Source: Bacteriovoracaceae bacterium
Lineage (GTDB): Bacteria; Bdellovibrionota; Bacteriovoracia; Bacteriovoracales; Bacteriovoracaceae
Assembly: GCA_016784965.1 (NCBI GenBank)
Contig: JADHTQ010000018.1
Coordinates: 1 to 64,000, forward strand
Direction of reading: 5' to 3'
Length of the DNA: 64,000 bases
In this document: in pieces, positions 29,029 to 54,635 of the stretch
Position numbering within the stretch: the first letter of the stretch is position 1
Layout of the letters: each line of letters begins with the position of its first letter
Made by a program: the position numbers and the translations under genes
Notes under the pieces: model-generated
What the model was told of the DNA's origin: nothing
Database searches by the model: none
What the model saw: the letters and a program-made list of their open reading frames with translations, nothing else

Positions 29029-31034
29029 TGAAAAGGATAGTTCTATATTTGGTATTGCTGAGCTTGGTGGCCCTGCAAGTTTTTGCAGTAGATGAAGTAG
29101 TATCTGTAATAAAAGATGGACGAAATAATCCGATGGCAACCGTGACATACTACCATGAACAAGGAGGTGTGGGGGTTAGTGTTTCATCTTTTCCAGGTCT
29201 TTTAGTAAAAGAGGTTGGGTCTGAAGACATCTTGGTATACGATTTCGATACCTCCTCTGAATTAATAATGCATGTAAAAGTATTTGAAATTTTAAATCCA
29301 ATTACTGCAGGAGGAGTACGAGCAGAAATAGGATATACTAAACAATTTGGAGTCGATGTTGCAACATTACCACTAGTTTCCAAGTTGGATGAAAAATCGC
29401 CACTTATAAAAAAGAAAGAAATAAAACGTAAATACCTGATTAGTCATTCGACCATATCACATGCAGTTAACTTGATAAAAGATCTGCCTAAGCCGTTTCA
29501 AAAGACTGTCCATTATCCTAAATCTGCATATGATCAACATATGCAAGAGCATGAACACTTATATCGAAGTATGTTAGAGCGCTTGTTGGAGAGACGTGCA
29601 CAATTTCAAGATTTCAAAAATCGTATTCGAAATTCACTAGGGGCGCCATATGCTCAAAGAGAAGACGATGTCAGGTTACAAATTCAAGCAGCGATGGATG
29701 GCCTTGACGTTTATGGTGAGGATATCCGCTTTGTCCAAACAAGTGCCAATGCTCTTTTGAGACCGACTTTGCCGTCTTCTATAGATCCAATAGAAATTGT
29801 AGCAGAGGAGAAGATAGCATCTGCAGAGATATTAGTAGAGCGGGAAGCTTTTAATAAGGCACTCTATGCCGATGTAACTGCCCCGACATTCTATTCAGAT
29901 TTACTACAGCTTGATATTAAGTTTAACCCTAAAGACGACAGCGATTTGAGTGCATTAACCATCTACCGAGATGCCCAAAAGCAAAAGTCAAAAAGACAGA
30001 AAAAAGATCAAAGGTATTATGAGCTAGACTTTTCGCAAAATATTATTGAGATTAGGCAGGCCAAGAAAACACAATTTGAACAAATTGTTCTAGATCACTT
30101 AAGTGATATTGCAACTGCTGTTAACGAACAAAATAACCATCTTTTAATCGAATCTTTATCCTTTTTTTCCAAATCAGAAGATTTTCAAAAAGGTCTTGCG
30201 GCCTCTTTTGCCAATAATATTAATCCGGTCTCTTTTTTATATCCGATTCAAGCTGGTTGTGAATCAAACTGGTGTGAGCTAGGAGCTGTCGTCGGTGATG
30301 CAAGTTCCATGCTTCTTGGTACCTTAGAATTACTTGGGGGAGTTGGATTGACAATTGGAGGTAGTGGGCTTGCCGTTGGAAGTGCTTTAGCAGCATCTGG
30401 GGGGGCAATACCGGCCCTTGCCGCTGCGTCTGTTGGTGCACTTGCTGTAATAAAAGGTCTAGCTTTTGCATCCCATGGAGCATCGGTTTTTAGTAATGCT
30501 TTTGGTTCTATGTATGACAAGATTACTAGTAAGTTTAATTTGCGGCAGGTATTTAAAAGTAAAAAGGTGATGGATTCTGCGGGGAAATTGGGACTAAAAA
30601 AAGCAGATGATATAAAACAATACGCTTCTAAGGTAAAGAATTATAAAGGAAAAATCCCTGTTGGTGATATTCCATATTGGAAAGGATCAGGACCACAAAG
30701 TGGAATCCTAGGAATAAATGATTTATCAAAATCCAATAAAGCAATAAAGAACTATTTTCCGAAGGAAGGTGGAATTGAGTATGTTTTTGATACCAAAACC
30801 AATACTTTTTTAGTGGGAAAAGCTAAAAAACACTCACTACGCCATCCAGGATTAGCTGATTCAATACAAGCAGATCACAATAATGTTGTTGGAGGTATGT
30901 TCTCAAGAGGAAAAAATGGCGAAATTTTCCTTAATCAACATACTGGACATTTCTATAAGAATTGGACTCCAGCAATTGAAAAACAACTTAAAGAAGCGAT
31001 GAAGAAACATGGCATAGATTTTATATGGAAATGA
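29028..31034 (+). CDS. Sec-exported polymorphic toxin 1
   Basis: A 668-residue modular toxin. Parts: signal peptide (1-20, ends LQVFA); beta domain (about 21-130); helical carrier (about 140-405); Gly/Ala-rich hydrophobic segment (about 413-497, GGVGLTIGGSGLAVGSALAA); junction FKSKKVMDSAG ending near 518; then a unique 150-residue tip. The carrier is nearly identical to toxin 2 (35466-37418) from about residue 140 to the junction, where identity stops abruptly. The tip ends IFLNQHTGHFYKNWTPAIEK and from memory resembles type-43 polymorphic toxin (BECR-fold RNase) tips; this is unverified. The candidate immunity gene follows. Confidence 0.8.
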   Translation: MKRIVLYLVLLSLVALQVFAVDEVVSVIKDGRNNPMATVTYYHEQGGVGVSVSSFPGLLVKEVGSEDILVYDFDTSSELIMHVKVFEILNPITAGGVRAEIGYTKQFGVDVATLPLVSKLDEKSPLIKKKEIKRKYLISHSTISHAVNLIKDLPKPFQKTVHYPKSAYDQHMQEHEHLYRSMLERLLERRAQFQDFKNRIRNSLGAPYAQREDDVRLQIQAAMDGLDVYGEDIRFVQTSANALLRPTLPSSIDPIEIVAEEKIASAEILVEREAFNKALYADVTAPTFYSDLLQLDIKFNPKDDSDLSALTIYRDAQKQKSKRQKKDQRYYELDFSQNIIEIRQAKKTQFEQIVLDHLSDIATAVNEQNNHLLIESLSFFSKSEDFQKGLAASFANNINPVSFLYPIQAGCESNWCELGAVVGDASSMLLGTLELLGGVGLTIGGSGLAVGSALAASGGAIPALAAASVGALAVIKGLAFASHGASVFSNAFGSMYDKITSKFNLRQVFKSKKVMDSAGKLGLKKADDIKQYASKVKNYKGKIPVGDIPYWKGSGPQSGILGINDLSKSNKAIKNYFPKEGGIEYVFDTKTNTFLVGKAKKHSLRHPGLADSIQADHNNVVGGMFSRGKNGEIFLNQHTGHFYKNWTPAIEKQLKEAMKKHGIDFIWK

Positions 31035-31048
31035 AACAAGAGGTAATT

Positions 31049-31552
31049 ATGTTTGACATTCTAAAAAAATATAAAAATATTGAAAATGACGAAAATATAG
31101 ATTTACAAAAACAAATTCAGTGGATTTCAATATTTTCAGTCTCAAATGACTATACAGGAGCATCTGTAGGCATTTCTCAAGAAAACAAGTGGATTATCAA
31201 AAAGGATAATAAAGTATATAATATAATCCATAATAATTCATATATGCCAGGATTATTTCTGCTCGAGCATGACATGAGTCATATTTATAAGCTAATAAGC
31301 AAAATTGAGCTAGAAACGGGTACTAAATTAAACTTTCCCTTTGAAGCAATAACAAAAGAAGGCATGAAATCTGATTCGGATTATTGGATAGATTATGCAT
31401 TTAAGTGGTATGAAAAACTTCCTGCAGATAACAAGAAAACCTTTTTTGAAGATTTCAAGAGGATGGAAAAATTAAAAAAATGTCACCAAAAGATTAAACA
31501 AAAGGCAAGTAGAGAAGTAAAAAGAATTTCAAATAACTACTATTCAGACTAA
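31049..31552 (+). CDS. Candidate immunity protein for toxin 1
   Basis: A 167-residue, lysine-rich protein without signal peptide or membrane segment, starting 14 bases after toxin 1. ATG 31049 (MFDILKKY) is chosen because AAGAGG lies six bases upstream; an in-frame ATG at 31025 overlaps the toxin end and has no such site. No family is recognised. Immunity is inferred from position only: a small cytoplasmic protein immediately behind a toxin tip. A cytoplasmic location would fit a toxin that acts inside the recipient cell. Confidence 0.6.
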   Translation: MFDILKKYKNIENDENIDLQKQIQWISIFSVSNDYTGASVGISQENKWIIKKDNKVYNIIHNNSYMPGLFLLEHDMSHIYKLISKIELETGTKLNFPFEAITKEGMKSDSDYWIDYAFKWYEKLPADNKKTFFEDFKRMEKLKKCHQKIKQKASREVKRISNNYYSD

Positions 31553-31599
31553 AAACCAAAAGGTTAACCAACGGGAAATACAAAATAGATATTGAAGGT

Positions 31600-31854
31600 A
31601 TGAAAAAGCATAAAATGGGTATTATTCCAGGCAAAAGCAAATTTTACCACTCAGTAGATGCAGATAAAGCGGTATTGGATGCGGCAGCATTTGCAGATAA
31701 ACATAATCTTTGGACTGGTTCAGGCCTTAATAAAGCGAAGGTTCCGGTTTTAAATACTCAACATATAGGTGTAACAGGAGGAGGAAAAATGACTAGGATT
31801 ATTAATGTGTACGGATCGAAAACAGGATTTATTCACGGAACACCAGGGAATTAA
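31600..31854 (+). CDS. Orphan polymorphic-toxin tip (no carrier)
   Basis: An 84-residue product from ATG 31600, containing FADKHNLWTGSG and ending VYGSKTGFIHGTPGN, the style of a toxin C-terminus. The frame is open upstream to 31537 and still reads protein-like (RLTNGKYKIDIEG) before the ATG, and GAAGG lies only one base from that ATG. This looks like a displaced toxin tip cut off from its carrier, not a free-standing gene. A small gene starts two bases after its stop, as an immunity gene would. The toxin family is not identified. Translation on its own is doubtful; recombination with a carrier could revive it. Confidence 0.6.
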   Translation: MKKHKMGIIPGKSKFYHSVDADKAVLDAAAFADKHNLWTGSGLNKAKVPVLNTQHIGVTGGGKMTRIINVYGSKTGFIHGTPGN

Positions 31855-31856
31855 GT

Positions 31857-32252
31857 ATGGATATTACAAATAGTATTGTAAGTGCATTAAAATCAAGTTT
31901 GCCTTGGTATCCATTTTTACTAAATGAATTTGTAAATGAGGTAGAGTCAACTTTTCCTCAACTGATAACTGAGTACGAAGAAGAAGCAGGTGAACGATGG
32001 ATTAGGTTGAGCTTGAACAATGAACTGTGCTTACTGTTGCACGTTAAGATTCCATTGGTTTTTGCAAGAAGCGATGTTGAAATGAGTGATAAATGGTCTT
32101 GTAAGCTAGACTGGATAAAGTTTAAGGATTCGCAATCAACAGTATTTTCAGCAAAGAAAAATGTGATTGAAGAGTTAAATGATGGTTGTATAGGTGATGC
32201 TCTTGATTCAAGTAATTTCTGCTTAAACGATTTGTGGGTTGTAACTTTATAG
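31857..32252 (+). CDS. Candidate immunity protein for the orphan tip
   Basis: A 131-residue acidic protein without signal peptide, starting two bases after the orphan tip. Its pattern (helical N-terminus, then strands ERWIRLSLNNELCLLLHVK and KLDWIKFKDSQ) is like small cytoplasmic immunity proteins, but no family is recognised. Retention of an intact immunity gene behind a carrier-less tip is the usual state of orphan cassettes in polymorphic toxin loci. The role is inferred from position. Confidence 0.55.
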   Translation: MDITNSIVSALKSSLPWYPFLLNEFVNEVESTFPQLITEYEEEAGERWIRLSLNNELCLLLHVKIPLVFARSDVEMSDKWSCKLDWIKFKDSQSTVFSAKKNVIEELNDGCIGDALDSSNFCLNDLWVVTL

Positions 32253-32289
32253 GGTAACCCGTCCCAGTCACTGGGGGTCATCCATATGA

Positions 32290-32301
32290 GTCTGCTGGCA
32301 C
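32290..32301 (+). repeat. Short copy of the island repeat end
   Basis: GTCTGCTGGCAC here is identical to the last 12 bases of both 100-bp dispersed repeats (24399-24410, 38563-38574). It lies in the 76-base gap between the orphan cassette and the next toxin operon, just after a small hairpin (CCCAG, 32263-32267, with CTGGG, 32271-32275). It thus marks a third module boundary. A chance 12-mer is unlikely but not excluded. Confidence 0.55.
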
Positions 32302-32328
32302 ATGTTTTCATGTTTTGGAGGTATCTGT

Positions 32329-34071
32329 ATGAAAATTGTCTTTCTAGGTTTGCTTCTACTAAGCTTTGTCTTAGGTGCAAGTAATTCAATGCAACCAGAT
32401 ATTTCCTTCCAAACAAAAATAGATATCTCCCAATTTGACCATAAAAAAGTGAGCGCAATATGGTGTATTTTTAGTTCACCGGAATCTAGCACATTCACAG
32501 AAAGTTTACAGGGCAGCTGGCAAGGAACAAAACAACAGCAGGTTCAGCGCTTTGTAAAAAATGGGCATGAATACCTTGCAAGAAAAATTCACTGGGATAG
32601 TGCTCAAACAGATAATACTTTTAAGCTTGTCTTTAAAGCAGACTCTTCACATTTTCAGGGCAGTCATACCCATGACAGACACACCTGCACCTATCGCACA
32701 TGGAGGGGACAGACATCCTCTGCCAGTAATGTCTTAACTGCAAATGCTGCGTTTGTAATCCCTAAAAATGTTTGGGTAGTGAGGATACGAGCAAATAAGA
32801 AAGAGGACCAGTCATTAACCAATGTTCGATTATATAACCTAGATTATAGTACTTCTTCAGATAATGCACACAAGACTTTAATTAAGCGTGCATTTTATTC
32901 ATTTGATGGCAATGAACGATACAAATATTTTTTAGTGAACCCAAGTATTGATGGTACCGATAATTTTGTCTATCTCAATTTAACCCATGTAAGTAAGACT
33001 ATGCAGGCAGACAAACTTGATTTGAGTTTTAAGGTCGATTTCTTGGCCAGAGATGAGTGTTTGAGCAGCTTAAAAGGAGTAACACTATCAGAAATTCTAC
33101 TCAATGAGGTGAAAAATAGTGGAGTTAATGCTGCTATTGTTAATTTATCTTGTATGCTCTCTCCTTTGTACATTGTGCATACCCTTTCTAATCTTATGAT
33201 CCATGGGGTATCGGATTTTTTTCGACAGGTTGACCAGTTGGAGAAGGTTATCACCAAAAAAGTTAAAAAAAATCTTGATAGAAGTAGTATTGATTCCTTT
33301 GCCGTTTTAAATGTACTACTTGATAGGGTAAGGTTTTATTATGCCTATGAAATTTCAAAGGACTTGATGGGACTACTTGCCAGTAATACTGATTTGGGCC
33401 TTGACGGATTACAGTACTTAGAAACCTTGCGGGCCCGAGGTGTATTATATTTAACTGCAGTAATTGATGAACTGATGGCGACAACTGAGCGAATTGATCA
33501 AGGTAGTGACCTTTTTGTGGAAATGAATATTAGAGACAAAAATAATATGAGTATCTTTGGACAAAATTTACTAGCAATGGAAGTTGCCGATTTGGCCCAA
33601 GCTTACCATAAGTTGCCTATACCTAACATGTTAAGTAGAAACCATTATCAACAACTTCTGGCAGCAGTTGAGCGTTTGAAGGTGAGTTATCACGGTTTTA
33701 ATGCTAATTTGACACCTTTTATGAAAAAACCTCATGACTACACCACTGCTGTGCTTAGGACCATACAAGATGACCTGCATGAATTGTTAATTGCCCTAGA
33801 AAATTACACTATGGCGTGGGAAAAATTTGCAGATAATCTACTAGCAGTTAAAAATGAACCAGCACAAATTGCAGATGCTCACAAAAGGTTTCTCTCAGAA
33901 ATTGAGGCCATGTTTAATCTAAATATTGTGGGCCTACATAAAATTTTAACTGAATACTTTAAACACCACTTCGAAGATCCAATATTCGCTAATATGAAGA
34001 CTGCAGGTAAAGTTTATAAAAACCCAAGTGATTTTATGGCAGATTTTAATAAGTTGTTGAGGGTAAAATGA
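32329..34071 (+). CDS. Unrecognised exported protein heading toxin 2 operon
   Basis: A 580-residue protein with a signal peptide (MKIVFLGLLLLSFVLGAS, cleavage about 18-20). The first ~220 residues are beta-rich with a His/Cys cluster (SHTHDRHTCTYRTWRG near 115-130), and the rest is a long helical domain. ATG 32329 is chosen because TTGGAGG lies about seven bases upstream; nine extra residues from 32302 would spoil the signal peptide. It overlaps the next gene by four bases (ATGA). It occupies the position that the 929-residue protein has in the first module but shows no obvious similarity. Function unknown. Confidence 0.6.
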   Translation: MKIVFLGLLLLSFVLGASNSMQPDISFQTKIDISQFDHKKVSAIWCIFSSPESSTFTESLQGSWQGTKQQQVQRFVKNGHEYLARKIHWDSAQTDNTFKLVFKADSSHFQGSHTHDRHTCTYRTWRGQTSSASNVLTANAAFVIPKNVWVVRIRANKKEDQSLTNVRLYNLDYSTSSDNAHKTLIKRAFYSFDGNERYKYFLVNPSIDGTDNFVYLNLTHVSKTMQADKLDLSFKVDFLARDECLSSLKGVTLSEILLNEVKNSGVNAAIVNLSCMLSPLYIVHTLSNLMIHGVSDFFRQVDQLEKVITKKVKKNLDRSSIDSFAVLNVLLDRVRFYYAYEISKDLMGLLASNTDLGLDGLQYLETLRARGVLYLTAVIDELMATTERIDQGSDLFVEMNIRDKNNMSIFGQNLLAMEVADLAQAYHKLPIPNMLSRNHYQQLLAAVERLKVSYHGFNANLTPFMKKPHDYTTAVLRTIQDDLHELLIALENYTMAWEKFADNLLAVKNEPAQIADAHKRFLSEIEAMFNLNIVGLHKILTEYFKHHFEDPIFANMKTAGKVYKNPSDFMADFNKLLRVK

Positions 34072-35465
34072 AAGTGATACTAATTTCTATTGTTTTTTCT
34101 CTTTTTTGCTCTACTTATAGTTTTGCAGAGGAGAGTCCTGAAGCTGCCATTGGAGACTATATAAAAAAAATTGACCAAAAATACAAAGCTATTGCAAAAT
34201 CTCTCGTTATGATGAGCTATGCTCGCATTTTTGCCAATCAGCTTCCTAGTGATAGTAAAGTGCCAGATTTTTCCTCAATTTCTGACGATATATTTACAAT
34301 AGTGTTTTCTAACAAGATACAACAGGAAAAAATAGACAGTTTAACTCAAACATTTGTGAAGATAAATTTGATTAAAAGAAAATGGTTAAGTAAAGGATCA
34401 AAGTTAAAAACTTCATCACTGATGTTTAATAATTTTTTTACAGATAATGCCAATATATGCTCTGAAAAAAATTTTCAAGATTCTCTTGCTCTTATTAATA
34501 CCAACACTCCATCAGGGATTGATCTTTCAAACTTAACGCGGGCCTTCGAAGTGGGGTTTACTGTAACTTTATCAGAAGATGGCAGCTTACAAAACGCTGA
34601 TATTTTTAGTCAATTTGAGGTTTCAAAAAATGAAAATGAATATAAAGAGGCAATCTCATTTGGAGTTGGGGCGGGAGTGTCACTGATTGCAAAAAGTGCT
34701 AAGTTAGGCCCATATGTTGCTGTCGGGGTGGCAGTTGCAATTTTGATAAAACTTTCATGGGATCTAGTAGAGCTGCAAGAGCACAACAAAAAATTAAGGG
34801 CACTTGCTATTTTACATAAGGAGCTCTTTAATAAATTAACCTTTGAAAAGACCGTACGCGATTATTATTATTTGTTTTGCAAGAAAGTTAGCTCAGCTTA
34901 TACTGATAACTTACCACTAGTACAGGAGATATTAGAAGCAAAGGCACAACCACAGCAAATACAGGAAAAAATTGCAATACATAGTGCATATTTGGCCCAG
35001 AGAAAAATTATTGAACAAGCTGACAATATTGATTTTCTTGATCGGCCTTCTGACTTTTACCATTTTTTTTCTTGGAGGCTTCTTCAAAGTGTGGTTGCTA
35101 GTAAACAACAAAGCGGTGTTTATGATACTACCTGGAGTAATGTTATGCAAGAGTACTCGCTTTTAGAACAATCAATCCAAGATGCGATGACAAAGATTAT
35201 AGAGAGTAAAAAACAGCAAGATATTAACTTTAGACAGGTAATGATAGATTTATTTGATTTTGCTAACTTCAAAAGACAGTTTACCAAGCTACTTTTAAAA
35301 CAGCGTCAAGCAGTCAATGTCGAAGATCAAGTAAGATACCTAGAAGAACTAGAAAACCTATTGGCCTATTTTCAAATGGGAAAAAAGAGTTTAACTGTTT
35401 CACAACTTGAGTTTTTAAAAGGATATAAAAAAATTGTTGAGCAAATTAGACAGGAGCAGCAGTAA
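34068..35465 (+). CDS. Unrecognised exported helical protein coupled to toxin 2
   Basis: A 465-residue protein with a signal peptide ending TYSFA (about 20), a helical body, one hydrophobic segment near 198-224 (FGVGAGVSLIAKSAKLGPYV, AVGVAVAILIKL) and a glutamine-rich coiled-coil C-terminus. Its ATG overlaps the upstream stop by four bases and its TAA touches the ATG of toxin 2. Like the lipoprotein before toxin 1, it is the gene immediately coupled to a toxin, so a role in its folding, export or surface display is a reasonable guess. No family recognised. Confidence 0.6.
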   Translation: MKVILISIVFSLFCSTYSFAEESPEAAIGDYIKKIDQKYKAIAKSLVMMSYARIFANQLPSDSKVPDFSSISDDIFTIVFSNKIQQEKIDSLTQTFVKINLIKRKWLSKGSKLKTSSLMFNNFFTDNANICSEKNFQDSLALINTNTPSGIDLSNLTRAFEVGFTVTLSEDGSLQNADIFSQFEVSKNENEYKEAISFGVGAGVSLIAKSAKLGPYVAVGVAVAILIKLSWDLVELQEHNKKLRALAILHKELFNKLTFEKTVRDYYYLFCKKVSSAYTDNLPLVQEILEAKAQPQQIQEKIAIHSAYLAQRKIIEQADNIDFLDRPSDFYHFFSWRLLQSVVASKQQSGVYDTTWSNVMQEYSLLEQSIQDAMTKIIESKKQQDINFRQVMIDLFDFANFKRQFTKLLLKQRQAVNVEDQVRYLEELENLLAYFQMGKKSLTVSQLEFLKGYKKIVEQIRQEQQ

Positions 35466-37418
35466 ATGTACAAAAACGTTATTTTAGCTATACTGCTGAG
35501 TTTGGTTGCTCTGCAAGTTTTTGCATGGGATGAAATCAAAGCAGTAATAAGAGACGGTCAAGGTAAGCCTATGGCGACGGTGACCTACTCTTATGAAAAA
35601 AAAGATGTTAGATACGAGATTGAAACATTTCCTGGGCTTCTACTAAAAGATGTTGGACGGAGAGTAATTACTCAACATGATCACAACATTTCTCCTCCAT
35701 TAACTGTGACTATATTTGTATTTGAAATTATCAACCCATTTACTGGTGGCGGGGTACGCTTAGAAATTGGGAGTGCAAACATATCTGAATGTGACTGTAA
35801 AACTGGACCAATAGTTTCTAGGTTGGATAGAACATCACCACTTATGCATAAAACTATAATTAAGCCGGCATACTTTATAGACCACTCGACTATATCACAT
35901 GCAGTTAATTTGATAAAAGACTTGCCAAAACCATTTCAAAAGACTGTCCATTATCCTAAATCGACCTATGATCAACATATGCAAGAAAATGCACAATTTT
36001 ATCGAAGTATGCTAGAGCGTTTTTTGGAGAGACGTGAACAATTTCAAGATTTCAAAAATCGTACTCGGAATGCTCTAGGGGCACCATACGCTCAACGAGA
36101 AGAAGATGTCAGGCTACAAATTCAAGCAGCTATGGATGGTCTTGACGTTTATGATGAAGATATCCGCTTTGTCCAAACAAGCGCTAACGCTCTTTTGAGA
36201 CAGAGTTTACCGTCCATAAAACCAGTAGATTTTGTTGCAGAGGAGTTAGCACCTGTAGAAATATTAGCAGAACAGGAAGCTTTTAATAAGGCACTCTATG
36301 CGAATATAACCACCCCGACATTTTTTTCAGACTTATTACAGTTTGATATAAAGTTTGACCCTCAAGACGACAGCGATTTGAGTGCATTAACCATCTACCG
36401 AAATGCCCAAAAGCAAAAGTCAAAAAGACAGAAAAAAGATCAAAGGTATTATGAGTTAGACTTTTCTCAAAATATTATTGAGATTAGGCAGGCCAAGAAG
36501 ACACAATTTAAACAAACTGTTCTAGATCGCCTAAGTGATATTGCAACTGCCGTTAACGAACAAAACAACCGCCTCTTAATCGAATCTTTGTCCTTTTTTT
36601 CCAAATCAGAAGATTTTCAAAAAGGTCTTGCGGCTTCATTTGCCAATAATATTAATCCGGTCTCTTTTTTGTACCCGATTCAAGCTGGTTGTGAATCGAA
36701 CTGGTGTGAGCTAGGAGGTGCCGTAGGCGATGCAAGTTCCATGCTTCTTGGTGCTTTAGAATTGCTTGGGGGAGTTGGATTGACAATTGGAGGTAGTGGG
36801 CTTGCTGTTGGAAGTGCTTTAGCAGCATCTGGGGGGGCAATACCGGCCCTTGCCGCTGCGTCTGCTGGTGCACTTGCTGTAATAGAAGGTCTAGCATTGG
36901 CATCTCATGGAGCATCGGTTTTTAGTAATGCTTTTGGTTCTATGTATGACAAGATTACTAGTAAATTTAATTTGCGGCAGGTATTTAAAAGTAAAAAGGT
37001 GATGGATTCTGCGGGTAACTTTGTTGGAAAGAATATAGATGATGTCAAAAAATTTGCAAAAAATATAAAGAAATCACCAGATAATAATTTTCAACATGTT
37101 CTATATCCTAGAGGTAAAGGAGCTTCGTCTCTTCCTGCACCAAAAGGATATACAAAAGTGAGTAGGTGGGTAAACCAGACAGAGGTTAAACCTTGGTTTA
37201 AAGGTGGAGGAACAAGAATTCCTCAAGAAATTGGAGCAAATAATCGCTTGTATGTTACCAAGTTCGGTGCTCCAAAACCAGGAGGTACTGGACCCATAAG
37301 AATTGATTTTGAGGTTCCAGGTGAAATGCTTCAAAGAGCAGGCAGTGGTGAGTGGAGACAAATTTTGCAACCACAGGCAAGTTCTCCAATTTACAATGTA
37401 GAAATTTTTCTACCATAA
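35466..37418 (+). CDS. Sec-exported polymorphic toxin 2
   Basis: A 650-residue sister of toxin 1. Signal peptide 1-20 (LQVFA) and the beta domain (to about 130) are clearly diverged from toxin 1, residues about 140-516 are nearly identical, and identity ends at KSKKVMDSAG (DNA junction 37011-37015 versus 30579-30583). The unique tip (about 134 residues) contains YTKVSRWVNQTEVKPWFKGG, NNRLYVTKFGAPKPGG, DFEVPGEML and GSGEWRQI. That pattern is faintly like ADP-ribosyltransferase-type tips (TreTu-like), a weak impression. A small candidate immunity gene follows 11 bases later. Confidence 0.8.
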   Translation: MYKNVILAILLSLVALQVFAWDEIKAVIRDGQGKPMATVTYSYEKKDVRYEIETFPGLLLKDVGRRVITQHDHNISPPLTVTIFVFEIINPFTGGGVRLEIGSANISECDCKTGPIVSRLDRTSPLMHKTIIKPAYFIDHSTISHAVNLIKDLPKPFQKTVHYPKSTYDQHMQENAQFYRSMLERFLERREQFQDFKNRTRNALGAPYAQREEDVRLQIQAAMDGLDVYDEDIRFVQTSANALLRQSLPSIKPVDFVAEELAPVEILAEQEAFNKALYANITTPTFFSDLLQFDIKFDPQDDSDLSALTIYRNAQKQKSKRQKKDQRYYELDFSQNIIEIRQAKKTQFKQTVLDRLSDIATAVNEQNNRLLIESLSFFSKSEDFQKGLAASFANNINPVSFLYPIQAGCESNWCELGGAVGDASSMLLGALELLGGVGLTIGGSGLAVGSALAASGGAIPALAAASAGALAVIEGLALASHGASVFSNAFGSMYDKITSKFNLRQVFKSKKVMDSAGNFVGKNIDDVKKFAKNIKKSPDNNFQHVLYPRGKGASSLPAPKGYTKVSRWVNQTEVKPWFKGGGTRIPQEIGANNRLYVTKFGAPKPGGTGPIRIDFEVPGEMLQRAGSGEWRQILQPQASSPIYNVEIFLP

Positions 37419-46001: not shown

Positions 46002-46169
46002 ATGGTATCTAGAGTTTTTCGCGATGTAGCTGTTGTAATATCAGTAATTGTTTTAAACATTTTTGCTCACGGAAACTCTCATCATGATCCACATACTCAC
46101 ATTCATACCAATTATTGTCAAAATGCTGAAAGAGTAAGAACGTCAGATATTCACGGTATTATTATCTAG
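46002..46169 (+). CDS. Small exported histidine-rich peptide
   Basis: A 55-residue gene with a good GGAGAG site eight bases before the ATG. The N-terminus (VAVVISVIVLNIFAHG) looks like a signal peptide, and the mature part contains HGNSHHDPHTHIHTNYC, with seven His in about 16 residues plus one Cys. This suggests metal binding in the periplasm. It lies 99 bases before the MotB-like gene on the same strand. No family is recognised. A chance short frame is possible, but signal peptide, ribosome-binding site and composition together favour a gene. Confidence 0.55.
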   Translation: MVSRVFRDVAVVISVIVLNIFAHGNSHHDPHTHIHTNYCQNAERVRTSDIHGIII

Positions 46170-46254
46170 TCCACCTTGAACAACTAAGAGTCATAATAAA
46201 CCATTAAGTAATTCATATTTTAAGCCGATACTCCATCCACACCCTATAGAGTTG

Positions 46255-46266
46255 CGCGGAGGCGCG
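46255..46266 (+). promoter_or_regulatory. Ribosome-binding site in a hairpin loop
   Basis: CGCG (46255-46258), GAGG (46259-46262) and CGCG (46263-46266) form a tiny GC hairpin with the Shine-Dalgarno sequence GGAGG exposed in the loop, six bases before the ATG at 46269. Such a display could tune translation of the MotB-like protein. Confidence 0.45.
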
Positions 46267-46268
46267 TT

Positions 46269-48089
46269 ATGAGCTTGGATTATGATAAAATAAGACAGAA
46301 CATAGATGAGTCAGCATCCAGTAAAATGGCTTCTTATAGCGACTTGTTCATGGTTTTATCTTTTGTATTTTTATTACTATATGTTGTAGCGAGTATCAGA
46401 AACGGTGCTTTTAGTATCCAAAAAAATGGAGAATTTAGACGTTTGGCCAGAGAAGCGGCCGATTTAAAACAGCAGATTAGAGTTTACAATGCTCTAAAGG
46501 ATGATCATTTAGAAAAAAAGGCGACTTCTGAGGAACAGAAGGCATATGAGGAACTGATGGACAAACTGTCGTTACTCAAAGAAAACGCCAAGGATGAAAA
46601 AGAAAAACTGCGCAAGTTGTCTATTGAAAATGAAAGAAAAGAAAATGCCCTCAATAAGTATCAACAACTGGTAAGAAATATAATTAACACCAACATTCTA
46701 GCAAAAGGCAGGATCAAAAGAAGAGATAAGATCATAGTGACCAAAAAAGAGGTTATTAATGTTCAGGCCAAGGATATTCACGAAAAAAAGGCACTCCTAG
46801 AGCAAAGAGCAGCAACCATTGCTAAAAATCAGCAGATGCTGCAAAAAAAAGAAATCCTGATTCAAAAGAACAAGCAAATCTTGGATGAAAAATCAAATGA
46901 GATTGTGGAGTTAAAAGATTCAGTGAGTAGCAAGAAGGCCACAATTAATGCAAACAAAAAACTTATTGCTACAATTAACAGCGACATTAAAAACAAAGTA
47001 ACTCTACTTGAAAAATTAAAACAAAACCAACAGATATCTGAAGAAAAATTTCAAAAGAGGATCAAAAGACTTCAAGAGGAAAGTGAGCTACAGGTTGCCA
47101 AAATCAATGAGAAAAACCAGACCATGAGTCAAAACTTGGCACAAATTAATGCCAAGTTGTTTGTGGCCAACACAGAATTAAACAAGGCCAATAAATCAAT
47201 AAAACAGCAGATACAAGAACAACAAAAGCTGGCACAAAATTTAGAGGAGGCCAAAAATACCAAAATTATTATGGAGCAAGCACATGCTAGAAAGCTAGCT
47301 CAAGTAGAAGACAGAATTCAAGCTCAGAAATCAAAGTTTGCAGCTCAAAAGGAACGCGATAAGCAAGTATTTTTAAAACAGCTAAGATCACAAAAGATGA
47401 GTGCTAAGGCCCGTGCTAAAAAACTGGCGGAATTTAAGGCCAGAAGTAGGAAAAAGGAGATGGCCCTTAAAGACAAAATTAATAAAATTTCAGGTGACCT
47501 TAAAAAAGCACAAGATATTATCAATATGACCAAAGTTGTGACCAGAAATATCGTTCAAAATTTTAAGAAAAAAGGCATCGATGCCAAGGTTGATAAACAG
47601 ACCGGAGATGTAATTTTAAATTTTGGTCAAGAGTACTTTACTACAGGTGCCTCTAAACTAAAGCCTGCCATGCGTACGATACTGAGAAAATTTATGCCAG
47701 CATACTCTGAGAGTCTTTTCAAGGATGCCAAGATTGCCAAAAAGATTAAGTCAGTTGAAATTGTTGGTTTTTCTTCTCCTACATATAAAGGTCGATATGT
47801 CGATCCAAAAAGCTTAAAAGCAAGTGATCGTGCCGCTATTAGTTACAATTTAGATTTAAGTTTTTATCGTGCCAAGTCTATTTTTAACTATATTTTTGAT
47901 AAATCTAAAATGGAATATAAACACCAAAAAACACTGCTGCCGCTTGTCAAGGTCACCGGAAGAAGCTTTTTAGCAGAAGGAATCAAAGGGCGAAATATAG
48001 CCTCAGGTATGGGCCAGAAGCAGTATTGTAAAAAATATAATTGCAAAAAATCACAACGAGTAATTATAAAATTTAATTTAAAAAATTAA
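46269..48089 (+). CDS. MotB/OmpA-like coiled-coil membrane protein
   Basis: A 606-residue protein with one membrane helix (about 26-43) preceded by SYSDLFMVLSFVFLLLYVV: the Asp (D25) sits where MotB-type stators carry the proton-accepting Asp. A coiled coil of about 370 residues follows (about 55-425), and a C-terminal OmpA-like domain (about 430-606) with VDKQTGDVILNFGQEYF, VEIVGFSSPTYKG and YNLDLSFYRAKSIFNYIF (N-x-x-L-S-x-x-R-A pattern), expected to bind peptidoglycan. MotB normally has a short linker, so the long coiled coil is unusual. It is followed 13 bases later by the MotA/TolQ-like channel gene, its likely partner. Confidence 0.75.
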   Translation: MSLDYDKIRQNIDESASSKMASYSDLFMVLSFVFLLLYVVASIRNGAFSIQKNGEFRRLAREAADLKQQIRVYNALKDDHLEKKATSEEQKAYEELMDKLSLLKENAKDEKEKLRKLSIENERKENALNKYQQLVRNIINTNILAKGRIKRRDKIIVTKKEVINVQAKDIHEKKALLEQRAATIAKNQQMLQKKEILIQKNKQILDEKSNEIVELKDSVSSKKATINANKKLIATINSDIKNKVTLLEKLKQNQQISEEKFQKRIKRLQEESELQVAKINEKNQTMSQNLAQINAKLFVANTELNKANKSIKQQIQEQQKLAQNLEEAKNTKIIMEQAHARKLAQVEDRIQAQKSKFAAQKERDKQVFLKQLRSQKMSAKARAKKLAEFKARSRKKEMALKDKINKISGDLKKAQDIINMTKVVTRNIVQNFKKKGIDAKVDKQTGDVILNFGQEYFTTGASKLKPAMRTILRKFMPAYSESLFKDAKIAKKIKSVEIVGFSSPTYKGRYVDPKSLKASDRAAISYNLDLSFYRAKSIFNYIFDKSKMEYKHQKTLLPLVKVTGRSFLAEGIKGRNIASGMGQKQYCKKYNCKKSQRVIIKFNLKN

Positions 48090-48102
48090 GGAGAGTTAGC
48101 AT

Positions 48103-49128
48103 ATGTTTTCTCAATCCATTATTCAAACATTTGTAGATGGGCTGGTATATTTTGCTACCGATCTGCTTTTGCCACTTATGTGCTTGATCTTTGTGATGGC
48201 GGTAATATTTAGAGTTCTCATTTACTTTACCATCAAACGTGAAGATTGGTTTGCCAGAGAGTTTGAAAAAAGAGTTCATGCATTTATGGACGGACCACTT
48301 GAGCAAGTAAAATTCTGGTCCTTTTTTATCCACATGAAAACATTACTTGAAAAGACATACTATGAGATCTTTGAAGTGCGTGCCATCATGAAAAGAAGAA
48401 AGCCAGATGTGGTGATGACCGTAAGTGATAGGATATTTCTGATTCAACATGGGGTTGCTTGGTTAGTTAATGATACTTTGAAAAAAATAAAGTATTTAAA
48501 GTACGGAACTGAAAGACCCAGATTGCTAGATATTTCCAAAAATGTCTTTCAAAACAATCCATGTTTTCGCAAGGTATTTGGATTAATTCCTGTGGGGCCT
48601 GTTAGTGATGTTTTAAATGTTTTGCCCGGTATGTTTATTATCGGAGGGATTTTTGGAACATTTCTTGGCATTATGAAAGCACTACCAGAGCTTGGAGGTA
48701 TGGATTTAAATGATGTAGAAGGCACCAAAATGATTATGGATAACTTTCTACTAAAGATTTCTTTTTCCATGAGTACCTCTATTATAGGTATTGTTTTGTC
48801 CGTTTCGATGACTCTGGTTAATACTCTCACATCTCATGAAAAGTTATTTGTAAGTATTGTAGAGCGCTTTGAAAATACCCTTGATACTTTGTGGAATAGA
48901 TGTGAAAACAATGAACTTCCAGAAAATATCGTTGAATTTGAAGGGCCAAAAGATCCACTTGAGGCAATGGCCGCAGAAGCACTCAAAAACCAACTGTCCA
49001 AAAGTCAACTTGGCATCAAGAAAAACAATCCGAACATAGAGATGGTGGATGAAGAAGACGTCGAAGAAAGTGACGATGTAGAATACGAGTACGAGGAAGA
49101 AGAAGAGTTTGATGAAGAAGCTTCCTAA
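48103..49128 (+). CDS. MotA/TolQ/ExbB-like channel protein
   Basis: A 341-residue inner-membrane protein with helices at about 18-44, 166-196 (LNVLPGMFIIGGIFGTFLGI) and 212-240 (SFSMSTSIIGIVLSVSMTLV), matching the MotA/TolQ/ExbB proton-channel domain (PF01618) with a cytoplasmic loop of about 120 residues between TM1 and TM2. The C-terminus is a strongly acidic tail (EEDVEESDDVEYEYEEEEEF). With the upstream MotB-like protein it should form an ion-driven stator-like complex. AAGGAG precedes the ATG. It is only distantly like the tolQ product at 4114-4842. Confidence 0.8.
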   Translation: MFSQSIIQTFVDGLVYFATDLLLPLMCLIFVMAVIFRVLIYFTIKREDWFAREFEKRVHAFMDGPLEQVKFWSFFIHMKTLLEKTYYEIFEVRAIMKRRKPDVVMTVSDRIFLIQHGVAWLVNDTLKKIKYLKYGTERPRLLDISKNVFQNNPCFRKVFGLIPVGPVSDVLNVLPGMFIIGGIFGTFLGIMKALPELGGMDLNDVEGTKMIMDNFLLKISFSMSTSIIGIVLSVSMTLVNTLTSHEKLFVSIVERFENTLDTLWNRCENNELPENIVEFEGPKDPLEAMAAEALKNQLSKSQLGIKKNNPNIEMVDEEDVEESDDVEYEYEEEEEFDEEAS

Positions 49129-49229
49129 CTTGTTATAAATACATAATTCATTTCCTCTATATGTCCCCTTAAAAAACACTTAAATAATTATGACTACTTG
49201 CCGATAAGAAGTCGGGGAAGTCTAGAAGT

Positions 49230-50849
49230 TTGTCAAATGTGAAGGAGCAAATTATTAGACCGATAGAAGTAGAAATATATTCACAGGGGAAGTTAACCAC
49301 TACCCAACAGGTGACATCTGACATTTGTATAGTGGGACGTTCGGCCAAGGCCGATTTGAGAATAAAGGCAGAGGGGATAAGTAGAAGACATATAAAACTT
49401 CTTAGAAAAGCAGACCAACTTTATGTAAAAGACTTGGGCTCCGCCAATGGTACATATTTGGATGATGTACCAATTCTCAAAGGCAAAAGACATAAGTGCT
49501 CATATAACAAGGTTATTAAATTGGGAATCTCTGGCATTACTCTGAGAGTTGCCTTGGCAGAAAAAGTGGATAATCGTCAAGAGTTAATGGCACTGACCCT
49601 TGAAGAAATAGATGATTTGAAAGTGTATGCCAAAAAAGAGGCCTTGAAAATTAAGGTTGAAGCAGATGAATATGCTTCTACCACCAGGTTGCAGGCCAAA
49701 AATGAAGCCAGTGCATATCTAGCACAGGCCAATACAAACGCAGCTCAAATGAAACAAGAGGCACAAATTGCAGCAGATGCTATGCGCGAGGATGCTTTGA
49801 GGGCCTGCAAAGACCTAGAAAATAGAACTGTCACAGCGATGAATAATCTTACCAAGCAGGTAGAAAAAGAAGTGGCCTATATGAAGACAGTTGCCCAAGA
49901 CAGTATTGCTAGGCAAAAGCAGGTGGCAAAAAAAGAAGCCGATCGGATGATGGAGGTCGCAAAATCCAATATTGACATAATGGAGCAGGATAAAAAGTGG
50001 GAGTTAAGTGAGATAGAGGAAAAAACTAAAGCAGTAAGAGAAATTGAAATAGATTTAAATAAAAAACGAAAAGCGGTTGAGGAACAATTGGGCATGTTGA
50101 GTTTGGAAAAAGCAGATGTGCATGAACAAAAAGAATCTCTTTTGGAGGAAGTCAATCAGATTGAGCGCCGAAAAGAAGAATTGGATAAAAAAGTTCAACA
50201 GATGGAGTTAACTCTCAAAAAACAAGAAGATAAAGTTAAGCAAAAGCTGGACAAAAGAGAAAGGGAAGTTGACACCAAAGAAGCACAGTACAAATTAACT
50301 CTTGTCAATATGGAAGTAGAACTTGAGGAAGTAGCAGCAAGACAAAAAATTATTGATAAGCAGTGTGAGATAGCTACTCGTAATAAAGAACAGCTAGAGT
50401 TAGAAGTAGAGCAGCTCAGAGAACAAAAAGATGAAGTTCGAAACGAAATTAATGATATCAGAGTTTCAAATGATGAGAAGGTTGAGCAACAAACAATTGA
50501 AATAAGCACTCTTTTAAACGAGAAAGTTGGTATTCAAGAAACCATTGAACAGTTAGAACAAAAAATTAAAGGGCTAGAGTTAGATGTTACAAAGCAAGTG
50601 CAAGATCGCATCAAAAGATACGATGAAGTTAGTAAATTAGAAAAGAAAATAGGTAAATTAAGTAGCAAAGTCCTTGAAAAGAAAAGGGAGCTAAAAGATA
50701 TAACCGTGGCATTTGATGTCGAATTGCTACGCATTCAATCAGAAAGAAAGGTACTAGAAAAAGAGTTAGAAGGAAAAAGAAAACAGATTGAATTAAAGCA
50801 GGCCCAACTCAATAAGGAGGCACAAGTCAATTTGGAAGAAGCAAGTTAA
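49230..50849 (+). CDS. FHA-domain coiled-coil protein 1
   Basis: A 539-residue cytoplasmic protein: FHA domain at about 10-105 with CIVGRSAKADLRI, GISRRHIKL and DLGSANGTYLDD (the Gly-Arg, Ser-x-x-His and Asn-Gly signatures), then about 430 residues of uninterrupted coiled coil. FHA domains bind phosphothreonine, so a Ser/Thr kinase is expected, but none is in the window. The early coiled coil (DEYASTTRLQAKNEASAYLA) is Ala-rich, like DivIVA or F-ATPase b-type rods. The start is probably TTG 49230; no ATG lies before the FHA domain. Second FHA gene follows 29 bases later. Confidence 0.8.
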   Translation: MSNVKEQIIRPIEVEIYSQGKLTTTQQVTSDICIVGRSAKADLRIKAEGISRRHIKLLRKADQLYVKDLGSANGTYLDDVPILKGKRHKCSYNKVIKLGISGITLRVALAEKVDNRQELMALTLEEIDDLKVYAKKEALKIKVEADEYASTTRLQAKNEASAYLAQANTNAAQMKQEAQIAADAMREDALRACKDLENRTVTAMNNLTKQVEKEVAYMKTVAQDSIARQKQVAKKEADRMMEVAKSNIDIMEQDKKWELSEIEEKTKAVREIEIDLNKKRKAVEEQLGMLSLEKADVHEQKESLLEEVNQIERRKEELDKKVQQMELTLKKQEDKVKQKLDKREREVDTKEAQYKLTLVNMEVELEEVAARQKIIDKQCEIATRNKEQLELEVEQLREQKDEVRNEINDIRVSNDEKVEQQTIEISTLLNEKVGIQETIEQLEQKIKGLELDVTKQVQDRIKRYDEVSKLEKKIGKLSSKVLEKKRELKDITVAFDVELLRIQSERKVLEKELEGKRKQIELKQAQLNKEAQVNLEEAS

Positions 50850-50878
50850 AAGTAATGGAATAAGTAGGAGATGAGAGA

Positions 50879-52387
50879 CTGAAGGTTTTCAAAGTACAAG
50901 TATATTTAGACAGTGGTTATGAGACAAAATATGTCGAGAAGAAAACCTTTACCGTAGGAAGATCAAAAAAGGTCGATTGTATCGTAAATCTAGAGGGTAT
51001 CAGTCGCAAGCATCTAAAAGTAAAATTAAAAAATAATGAAATTTGGCTTACAGATTTGGGATCGGCCAATGGAACATTTATAGGGCAACAACGACTTAGC
51101 CCCAATGTACCATTTCAGTATGATATGAAAAAGCCAATTCGCCTGGGTACTTGTACAGAGATTTTAACGTTAGAAAATATCTTAGGTGATTATACTGATC
51201 CCAAGCAGCTTATTATAAAACCTGAGCTAGATAAGCAGCCAGAGGAACAAAGTTACAATTTTGATGAAGTTTTAGATCATGATACTGGTGGATATAGAGT
51301 AGAGTCATCTGGATTTCAAGATGTAGATGGTCAAGATATGTCAATCAATGAAGAGACCGAACAAAAAGAGGCACTCTCTATCAAAGATAGTATCCCCCGG
51401 CCCCATCCCCAGCCACAGCCTCAGAGCCAGGTAGAGATTCCCCAAGCTGATGACGGTCTAAAAGACAAGTATGAAAAACTAGCAGTTAGAGAAAAGCAGC
51501 TAGATGAACGTATGGGCCTATTGCAGGTAAGAGAGAGACAGTTCATAGAGGATAAAGCAAACTTTGAAAAATATAAAAAACAGTTTCTAAAAAATATGAA
51601 AGCACATGAGGACTCTAGACCTGCGATGGAGCAAACGAGTGAGTCGGCAAAAGAAGAGTTAGAAAAACTACAACATGAAATTAGAAAGATGAGGGCCGAA
51701 ACAGAAGCAAGCAAAGCTGAAGCGAAACTAGAAATCATTCAGCTGCAAGTTGATGTTAAGAAAGCATACTCAGAAAAAGTTATTATAGAATCCGAACTAA
51801 AAGTACTTACTGCCGAGAAGAAGAGTTTTGATGAAGAGATGAGAAATTCCACAGATGCACTGAATGAGCTTAAGGTAAGAAAACATGATGTTTTTAGACA
51901 AAAAAATCGTCTAGTCAAAGAAGTTTTAGAAATAGAGCAGCAAGTAAAACAGTTTAAAAATGAATATGAAAAAGAGCATGATAAGCAAAAAGAGATTACT
52001 AAAGCGACCCAAGAGGTAAACTCTAAGTATAATGCAGCTCAAGAGATGTTACAGGCAAAAATGACTGAAGTCGAACAGACCAAGACAAAGTTAGCGCTTG
52101 AACTGAGGGGCATAAGAGCACAGGCGCAAGCAGAAGAGGCAGATGCCAAACTCAAACTGATGAGGATTGAAGCTGACTGTGAAGAGAAAAAGCTAGAAGC
52201 AACAAAGTATGAAGCACAGTTGCGCGATTTGAAACAAGAGACAAAAGCTGATGAGGTGCCCACTCAACAAATGGAGTGGAAACCACAAAAAAAATATACA
52301 TTAAAAGAAAGGCCAACAGAAGAATATGGCAACGTCGAGGATATCACAATCAAGCGTGATAAGGGAAGGAAGGTGTCAAATGAGTAA
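50879..52387 (+). CDS. FHA-domain coiled-coil protein 2 (apparent CTG start)
   Basis: A 502-residue paralogue-like protein: FHA domain at about 2-90 (FTVGRSKKVDCIV, GISRKHLKV, TDLGSANGTFIGQQ), a Pro/Gln-rich linker (PRPHPQPQPQSQ, about 163-180) and a coiled coil (about 190-460). The frame is open back to TAA 50861-50863, and no ATG, GTG or TTG precedes the FHA core. CTG 50879 has AGGAG eight bases upstream (50866-50870) and begins KVFKVQVYLD, the first FHA strand. A start at TTG 51056 would delete the FHA domain. The stop overlaps the next gene's ATG. Confidence 0.75.
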   Translation: MKVFKVQVYLDSGYETKYVEKKTFTVGRSKKVDCIVNLEGISRKHLKVKLKNNEIWLTDLGSANGTFIGQQRLSPNVPFQYDMKKPIRLGTCTEILTLENILGDYTDPKQLIIKPELDKQPEEQSYNFDEVLDHDTGGYRVESSGFQDVDGQDMSINEETEQKEALSIKDSIPRPHPQPQPQSQVEIPQADDGLKDKYEKLAVREKQLDERMGLLQVRERQFIEDKANFEKYKKQFLKNMKAHEDSRPAMEQTSESAKEELEKLQHEIRKMRAETEASKAEAKLEIIQLQVDVKKAYSEKVIIESELKVLTAEKKSFDEEMRNSTDALNELKVRKHDVFRQKNRLVKEVLEIEQQVKQFKNEYEKEHDKQKEITKATQEVNSKYNAAQEMLQAKMTEVEQTKTKLALELRGIRAQAQAEEADAKLKLMRIEADCEEKKLEATKYEAQLRDLKQETKADEVPTQQMEWKPQKKYTLKERPTEEYGNVEDITIKRDKGRKVSNE

Positions 52388-54635
52388 AATACATAGCATC
52401 TATAGTAGCAAAAATGATAATGACATCCTTGAGGCCGAGGCCCGGCTTGAAAAAGTTCGAATTCAATCTGAAACTCAGAATTTACTCTTGCAAAAAGTAA
52501 GCATCGAAGCAGAAGTTAAAACCCTAGATTCAAAAAAAGAGATGCTAAAGAGAAAAGTTGCAAAAACTAGAGATCAACTAGAAAGTGACCAACTAGAGCT
52601 CGATGAGATTAATTTGAGTAAAGAAGCAGCGAAAATGACCTTAGATGATTTTGAAAAAAATAAGCGAGTTGAAGCAGAAAAAATAGAAAAGCTCTGTAGC
52701 AAAAGAGATGAGTTGCAAAAAGAAATTGAAAAGGTAGAAGAAGACAATGCACAGAAGATTTTGCAATTTGAGGTCAAAAGAAAAGAGTATGAAGATCAAT
52801 TAGATGAGCTAGGCTTATTAATTAAAGATCAAGAAATTGCCGGTGAAATGACAACTGAAAAAGTACGACTGGAAAAGGCCAAAATTAGCAATGAATTACA
52901 AGATATGGAAAAGCAAAAAGGCGAGTTAATTGGCCAAATTCAAAATAATGAGGAGATTTGGCAGAAGAAGGAGCACTTTTTGCGAGATTATAAGGGTGAG
53001 TTAGATGAGCTAAAAGTGAGCATTTTAGAAAAAAGAAAGATACTTGCAAGTTTTTCTGAAGAAGCTACGCAGGAGGAAGTCCGCAAAGATGAATTGTCCC
53101 AACAAGTAATAGATTTTGAAAAGAAAAAAGAAAGCTTAACCAAGCAGCTGGCCAAGCTCAGAAGTGTCAAAAACGAAACCGAGCAAGGAATAATTAAGCG
53201 CAAAGAAGAGGCCTCTGAGGGTCTTAAAGAGGAGTTGAACCAGTTAGATCAGCAGGCCCTAGACAACAAAAGAGAGCTAGAAAATTTGGTCGAGGAAAAA
53301 AACAAAGTGGACTTGACCAAAAAAGAAGTGTTGAGTGAAATTGATGAGATGAAGTTGGAAAAAGTTAAAATTGAAGAGGAGATAGAAAACTTACAAAATA
53401 CCAGGCAACAGGGCTTAGCAGATATTGAAAGACAAAAGCAACAGGCCATGCTGGAAGTAGAGGAGTTAAGCGATGATGCCAAAGGAGCAAGAATTGCACG
53501 ACAAAATGCAGAGCGTGCACTGGAACAGCTAAAAGAAGCTCAGGAAAAAGAAAATAAGTTACGTCATGAAATTAACTCATTTGAAATCACTAAAAGCAAA
53601 CAAGACAACATTATTGCCAAGATGAAGCTTGAGGCCCAACAGGAGCTAAAAGAAGTACGTGAAAAACAAAGAGCAGAAATAGAAAGGGAAAAAGCAAATG
53701 TATTAAAAATGGCCGATGAGCGTGCTAAAAAAGAATATCAAGATCAACTAGATATCATTGAAAGAAAGCTCAAAGAGGATAAAAGAAAGGCCGAGGTCGA
53801 ATATAAGAAAAAGTGTGCAGATGATGAGCGTAGATTTGCCAACAAAAAGGCACAAGAAATTGACAATATAACAACTGGAGTGAGTGAAGCAGTTGTTTAT
53901 AAGATAAAGGATATTCTAAAGAAGAAGGATCGCCAAAAACACCTTGATGAATTGATGAATAACATTCATGGATTAGTCTACTCTAGTTTAAACAAAGAAG
54001 GGCCCTCAAGTAATGAAAAATTAAAAGATATGATGTCATTTAGCCAAACGAGGGTGGAAAAAAACAAGAGGTATTACTTTAAAGTGGTCGTTGCAAGTGT
54101 TGTTTTTGTAATGCTTCTCATTATCCATTTGACTACTCCGGTGACGAGAAACATCAGGATAGCAATCGTAAATATGCTAAGAACCGACAAGTCTGCTTCT
54201 GATATGTTTATAGAAAATGTTAAGGACAAAAGGGCAACAGATTCATTGTATGAGCCAGAGCAAACTAGTGATTATAAAGATTCTTATACGCACAATATTC
54301 TGTTTACACTCGACTACTTAGATGCGGTACAAGAGGAAGAATATAAAAATGAATGGGTAGTTTCTTTGAATGCATTTTTGATAAATAAACTTGAATTAAG
54401 TGATAACAGCATTGTAGATTTTATGTCGATTGAAACCAATCTAATGGAGCAGTTGGTTCACATTAGAAGTAGCATAACACCCATGACCGAAGAAAAAAGT
54501 ATTCAGAAAATGGAAAACATTGAAGCAGCAGCAACAGAAGATATTGTGAAGCTAATGCAGTCTGATAAAAATTACAATGAATTCAAGCAATTTCAACAAA
54601 AGTTTTATCAGGATTATCTCTCACAACAAGAATAA
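52380..54635 (+). CDS. Long coiled-coil protein with C-terminal membrane anchor
   Basis: A 751-residue protein: almost continuous coiled coil from about 15 to 540, one membrane helix near 568-588 (FKVVVASVVFVMLLIIHL) and about 160 residues beyond it, presumably periplasmic, with no recognised fold. ATG 52380 overlaps the FHA 2 stop by eight bases, with AAGGAAGG upstream; the longer frame from 52326 lies in the FHA 2 gene. The topology puts the coiled coil in the cytoplasm, where it could meet the two FHA rods. It is the last gene of the operon. Generic coiled coils of this kind can resemble SMC or myosin without homology. Confidence 0.7.
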   Translation: MSKIHSIYSSKNDNDILEAEARLEKVRIQSETQNLLLQKVSIEAEVKTLDSKKEMLKRKVAKTRDQLESDQLELDEINLSKEAAKMTLDDFEKNKRVEAEKIEKLCSKRDELQKEIEKVEEDNAQKILQFEVKRKEYEDQLDELGLLIKDQEIAGEMTTEKVRLEKAKISNELQDMEKQKGELIGQIQNNEEIWQKKEHFLRDYKGELDELKVSILEKRKILASFSEEATQEEVRKDELSQQVIDFEKKKESLTKQLAKLRSVKNETEQGIIKRKEEASEGLKEELNQLDQQALDNKRELENLVEEKNKVDLTKKEVLSEIDEMKLEKVKIEEEIENLQNTRQQGLADIERQKQQAMLEVEELSDDAKGARIARQNAERALEQLKEAQEKENKLRHEINSFEITKSKQDNIIAKMKLEAQQELKEVREKQRAEIEREKANVLKMADERAKKEYQDQLDIIERKLKEDKRKAEVEYKKKCADDERRFANKKAQEIDNITTGVSEAVVYKIKDILKKKDRQKHLDELMNNIHGLVYSSLNKEGPSSNEKLKDMMSFSQTRVEKNKRYYFKVVVASVVFVMLLIIHLTTPVTRNIRIAIVNMLRTDKSASDMFIENVKDKRATDSLYEPEQTSDYKDSYTHNILFTLDYLDAVQEEEYKNEWVVSLNAFLINKLELSDNSIVDFMSIETNLMEQLVHIRSSITPMTEEKSIQKMENIEAAATEDIVKLMQSDKNYNEFKQFQQKFYQDYLSQQE

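Follow-up and report, generated by a model that had tools for sequence, protein, structure and literature searches.

A 64,000-nucleotide stretch of a draft Bacteriovoracaceae genome (GenBank assembly GCA_016784965.1, contig JADHTQ010000018.1, positions 1 to 64,000; hereafter, the window) carries a cassette of five large, closely spaced plus-strand genes, as an initial annotation of this DNA had described and as the open reading frame coordinates confirm. These genes probably encode a non-flagellar, peptidoglycan-anchored, ion-driven motor of the MotAB/TolQR/ZorAB superfamily, with a 5:2 ratio of A (MotA-like) to B (MotB-like) subunits and a separate bitopic partner that bears an FHA domain. 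Conserved residues, domain order and gene order give good support to the inference that the motor is anchored in the wall, driven by ions and equipped with an FHA arm that reads phosphorylated partners; of the proton-driven, peptidoglycan-anchored motor with FHA phospho-reading that had been proposed initially, the motor and the arm are thereby supported, but the proton is not established as the ion.

A putative motor core related to ZorAB

The B subunit consists of a short N-terminus with an aspartate (D25) in the motif SYSDLF, one transmembrane helix, a periplasmic coiled coil of ~370 residues and a ZorB/OmpA-like domain containing NxxLSxxRA and an invariant C-x4-C. It matched the PADLOC ZorB1 profile (2.2e-27) and, weakly and under the cut-off, the Pfam MotB_plug profile; matches to EnvC and other coiled-coil proteins were judged compositional and rejected. 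The equivalent of D25, the proposed stator aspartate, was present in all 45 MotB orthologs with an intact N-terminus. The two cysteines of the C-x4-C motif (C587 and C592 in the window protein; region 48027-48044) were invariant in orthologs, were found too in most of the sister family described below and possibly form a periplasmic disulfide.

The A-subunit profile matched solved ZorA structures (E values of 1e-7 to 1e-8) and PADLOC ZorA1 (1e-6), the match to Pfam MotA_ExbB was weak and under the cut-off, and the AlphaFold model (mean confidence, pLDDT, 72.6) gave modest-scoring matches to the folds of ZorA, TolQ and ExbB. As counted on the alignment of the profile to the ZorA structures, T186 and S226 correspond to T147 and S184 of ZorA, the ring Thr/Ser of the channel helices, and their equivalents were invariant in 49 of 49 orthologs; the channel residues of ion-driven members, on which the initial proposal depended, are thus kept. 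The sequence features of MotA/TolQ/ExbB 5:2 ion-driven motors, an aspartate at the start of the B-subunit transmembrane helix and a Thr/Ser ring in the A subunit, were accordingly found in this core.

After the channel, A-subunit orthologs continue in a tail of 23-174 residues, variable in sequence and length, which was of low confidence (disordered) in the window model. The tail had been noted as acidic, which it is in the window, but this character is not conserved among relatives and only the last residues are: all 49 orthologs, at loci L028-L119, ended in S, A or G preceded by A, V, G, S or T, mostly as K-A-S or K-A-A, compared with such endings in 29 of 552 neighbouring open reading frames, although related entries in the ortholog count are not independent. 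The window A subunit ends in E-A-S (49117-49125), as does the first FHA protein downstream (FHA1). Because the codons of the tripeptide differ, selection acts at the protein level. The motif is retained where the third gene is absent, as at L036, and the sister motors have a looser version of it, so the third-gene product cannot be its sole partner. Of ten other members of the MotA/ExbB family in the same genome, eight lack the motif, judging by eye from their ends. A docking peptide or a protease tag are our ideas for its role. Elsewhere in this genome, a protein of 587 amino acids with a MotA domain and a long C-terminal portion (L144:1189-2952; G000:C52) ends in K-L-A-S and is possibly ZorA-like.

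A third gene that joins an FHA domain to the membrane

In relatives, the third gene usually encodes one fused protein of 707-1440 amino acids (hereafter, the rod), comprising an FHA domain, a coiled coil, a transmembrane segment about 185 residues before the C-terminus and a helical domain with a YTDNVLYT-like motif. The coiled coil, to which the FHA domain is N-terminal, is predicted to be cytoplasmic. The conserved C-terminal domain (about 150 amino acids, helical) was modelled at a pLDDT of about 97, and searches of the PDB by sequence and fold gave no convincing match to it. FHA domains were found in 34 of 40 third-gene entries, with the phosphothreonine-binding core mostly intact. In the window, Pfam FHA matched the FHA1 and FHA2 proteins at 1e-14 and 2e-13, respectively, with the core (GR, SRxH, NG) intact in both, which would make each a phosphothreonine reader; the genome also encodes four Hanks-type kinases.

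The window's FHA2 and coiled coil-transmembrane genes jointly correspond to the fused gene of relatives. The third gene is also split in genome G004, and in G029 an FHA-coiled coil protein stands alone beside the motor, with two full-length rods elsewhere. The two FHA rods and separate coil that the initial annotation reported are therefore real features of the window, but not the norm of the system, in which relatives have one fused protein; by comparison with these sequences, the window's arrangement is a derived form, a lineage-specific split and expansion of the third gene. Rod relatives also occur away from motors: a 1136-amino-acid coiled coil-transmembrane protein in the window's genome (L124:6883-10293; G000:C40) has no Pfam FHA match and no adjoining motor, and FHA-coiled coil-transmembrane paralogs of 480-545 amino acids occupy a conserved locus, distant from any motor, in four genomes of genus g118 (L128, L129, L131 and L132).

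Distribution and comparison with known motors

Searches covered Bdellovibrionota genomes, plasmid and viral collections and one scan of named genomes. A-subunit orthologs were detected by profile search in 143 of the 369 phylum genomes and the rod C-terminal domain in 132, with both in 128; in 113 genomes the rod gene lay downstream of the A subunit, on the same strand and within 6.5 kb, so that the proposed gene neighbourhood is kept in relatives. The usual operon has three genes (MotB, MotA and the fused rod) and is conserved across at least ten families; in about 45 relatives, no conservation of neighbours extended past these three genes. The closest named relatives of the window were metagenome-assembled genomes (MAGs) of Bdellovibrionales and Bacteriovoracaceae, with three close loci in the named-genome scan, and the system is common in a genus that is probably Bdellovibrio (g71, about 20 genomes). 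In the tree, most orthologs clustered with others of their family and some families were intermixed, a pattern that fits ancient inheritance with a degree of transfer. The plasmid and viral collections contained no relatives and a PHROGs search gave no match; within the searches made, the system appears restricted to Bdellovibrionota. The open-access literature that we searched yielded no description of the operon or motor family.

Zorya ZorAB (8qyd, 8vvn and 8vvi) provided the closest A and B subunits in sequence and fold, with the same combination of an aspartate, a Thr/Ser ring and a peptidoglycan-binding B subunit; the homology is distant, falling below NCBIfam cut-offs. In Zorya, ZorB binds peptidoglycan, the aspartate packs against the Ser/Thr ring and the ion may be H+ or Na+ (PMC11890865), and because its residues are equivalent to those of the studied motor, the ion of the latter cannot be taken to be the proton. 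Such kinship would suit an anti-phage system of Zorya type or derivation, in which MotB would sense phage damage to the wall and the rod would relay this to effectors through FHA, and the separate rod could replace the long cytoplasmic tail that ZorA requires (PMC11890865). Unlike Zorya, however, the studied motor has a long periplasmic rod in its B subunit, an A subunit without a helical tail, an FHA-coiled coil-transmembrane partner and a fixed operon across the phylum, and no ZorC-, ZorD- or ZorE-like gene was found in the window. The absence of these genes and of the ZorA tail indicates that the system is not Zorya; the earlier view that it matched none of several known systems, Zorya among them, holds for the missing rest of Zorya but not for the A and B subunits. 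In addition, no effector gene recurred beside the operon in about 45 relatives, and the phylum-wide, fixed and mostly single-copy distribution, without plasmid or viral relatives in the collections searched, makes defence, suggested initially as an output alongside surface movement and envelope remodelling, less likely. We therefore consider an anti-phage role very unlikely.

A parallel for the third gene is the gliding machinery of Myxococcus, AglRQS-GltG, which likewise joins a TolQ-type motor to a bitopic protein with a cytosolic FHA domain (PMC3169522), as the fused rod is. Given also that Bdellovibrio glides (PMC3169522), the studied motor might drive gliding or surface motility, the rod joining motor to cargo. 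AglRQS-GltG has features of its own, namely the ExbD/TolR-type B subunits AglQ and AglS and a periplasmic TonB domain in GltG, whereas the studied motor has a single B subunit of OmpA/ZorB rather than ExbD type. Homology to GltG was not detected above the cut-off, its profile being non-discriminating (a weak match in every genome), Glt-like envelope genes did not recur beside the operon, and the window's genome already has two AglRQS-like sets. Gliding is, on balance, an unlikely output.

The three-transmembrane fold of the A subunit is shared with TolQRA/Pal and ExbBD-TonB, and a Tol-Pal-like motor for division or envelope constriction would be compatible with that TolQ-type fold, with a peptidoglycan-binding B subunit and with a coiled-coil bitopic third protein that superficially resembles TolA. 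Yet the B and third proteins are of types other than those of these systems: the B subunit is not of ExbD/TolR type, and the coil of TolA is periplasmic, whereas that of the rod, with its N-terminal FHA domain and near-C-terminal transmembrane segment, is predicted to be cytoplasmic. As three ExbB/TolQ-type sets are also present in the window's genome, we regard this alternative as quite unlikely.

With flagellar MotAB, the studied motor has in common an aspartate ahead of the transmembrane helix and an OmpA-like peptidoglycan-binding domain, and an accessory flagellar stator might be suspected from MotA/MotB-like genes in a mostly flagellated phylum (FliG in 333 of 369 genomes). Against this, the A subunit has a three-transmembrane, ZorA/TolQ-like fold, no rotor or other flagellar genes lie nearby, and two near-complete genomes (G269, 97% complete, and G271, 99% complete) carry the system without FliG, which shows that a flagellum is not needed; a stator role is accordingly highly improbable. 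Two flagellar-type MotAB pairs are encoded separately in the window's genome, in addition to the AglRQS-like sets and ExbB/TolQ-type genes mentioned above (all classified by eye, using the order of the subunits and the kind of B subunit), and since these coexist with the studied motor, it is unlikely to substitute for them.

Several observations weigh against a dedicated, wall-anchored motor with an FHA partner, the explanation that we favour. The rod of MotB, 41-72 nm as a straight helix, exceeds the reach needed to peptidoglycan. The third gene is missing from fifteen genomes with MotA, and orphan copies of it exist, including one in the window's genome, so the link between MotA and rod is not absolute. 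Finally, the FHA core is lost at L080, L084, L085 and L029, where the operon is still kept, so phospho-reading is not always required.

Sister motors and a possible mechanism

Eleven related MotB-MotA pairs formed a separate clade (100/97 support), with loci among L037-L047, one of which (L041) is on contig C49 of the window's own genome. A gene with a cyclic-nucleotide-binding domain (cNMP_binding, PF00027) stood beside MotA in all ten sister operons tested (for example, L041:8589-9059 and L044:9773-10252), on the opposite strand in L046. The sister operons share with the studied one the A/B architecture, similar conserved C-terminal residues in A and the C-x4-C motif in B, but their third gene encodes a small cyclic-nucleotide-binding protein, where the studied operon has the FHA rod. 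The strongest pointer to a signal-coupling function of the third gene is this pairing of two related motors with different cytosolic readers; it suggests signal-controlled motors in which the rod would have a gating or coupling role.

Whereas genes, domain order, and the conservation of residues and operon were observed directly, the complex, ion flux, phospho-binding and output are proposed as follows. From family knowledge, five MotA-like subunits would enclose a pair of MotB-like helices, D25 and the T186/S226 ring would form the path for protons or Na+, and the MotA ring would turn while the long coiled coil and peptidoglycan-binding domain hold MotB. The partner would extend from its FHA reader through the long cytoplasmic coiled coil and the membrane to a novel helical periplasmic domain. 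Less firmly, the FHA rod may engage threonine-phosphorylated partners and either gate the motor or be the load that it moves; the output, at a guess, would be mechanical work on the envelope, cell shape or surface movement. A broader proposal, which we find possible rather than probable, is that these operons belong to a previously undescribed Bdellovibrionota family of signal-gated, wall-anchored rotary motors, switched or steered by interchangeable cytosolic readers (an FHA rod recognising phosphothreonine, or a cyclic-nucleotide-binding protein), with the A-subunit C-terminal peptide as a docking or turnover tag.

Gene layout and neighbourhood

The cassette (Table 1) lies on contig C48 of the draft MAG, a Bdellovibrionota genome of 4.59 Mb, flanked by a YhaM-like exoribonuclease gene on one side and an opposite-strand GNAT acetyltransferase gene on the other. 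The B and A genes are separated by 13 bp and the A and FHA1 genes by about 100 bp, and the end of FHA2 is overlapped by the start of the coiled coil-transmembrane gene. Upstream of the FHA2 domain there is no ATG, GTG or TTG, and translation probably begins at a CTG (50879) that follows AGGAG, unless the sequence contains a base error; this CTG overlaps a short ATG-AGA-GAC-TGA frame (50871-50882).

Table 1. Predicted genes of the putative motor cassette in the window
Feature	Position	Strand	Details
MotB/ZorB-like B subunit, 606 aa	46269..48089	+	D25 at 46341-46343, transmembrane helix, coiled coil, ZorB/OmpA-like domain ~47499-48086
MotA/ZorA/TolQ-like A subunit, 341 aa	48103..49128	+	3 predicted transmembrane helices; T186 48658-48660, S226 48778-48780
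FHA1-coiled coil protein, 539 aa	49230..50849	+	FHA ~49329-49526, no transmembrane segment, C-terminus E-E-A-S
FHA2-coiled coil protein, about 500 aa	~50879..52387	+	FHA ~50951-51124; likely CTG start
Coiled coil-transmembrane protein, 751 aa	52380..54635	+	Transmembrane segment ~54055-54125; conserved helical C-terminal domain matched 54027-54632

A His-rich open reading frame of 55 amino acids at 46002, counted initially as a component, had no counterpart at the loci of relatives (tblastn, E>=3) and probably does not belong to the system. A search of the window for tRNA and Rfam elements found none. Outside the cassette, at 29028-37418, two large proteins of 668 and 650 amino acids, which look exported, have near-identical central parts, different C-terminal ends and a small open reading frame after each, an arrangement that looks like a polymorphic toxin/immunity array.

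Significance

Ion-driven 5:2 motors with known jobs are few, comprising those of flagella, Tol, Ton, gliding, the type IX secretion system and Zorya. A further such motor, fixed as an operon in a phylum known for predators and linked to phospho-signalling, would extend the list of motor types and would offer a route to asking how motors of this kind are switched from the cytosol. Genetic tools exist for Bdellovibrio, and the presence of the operon in what is probably this genus would make direct genetic testing possible.

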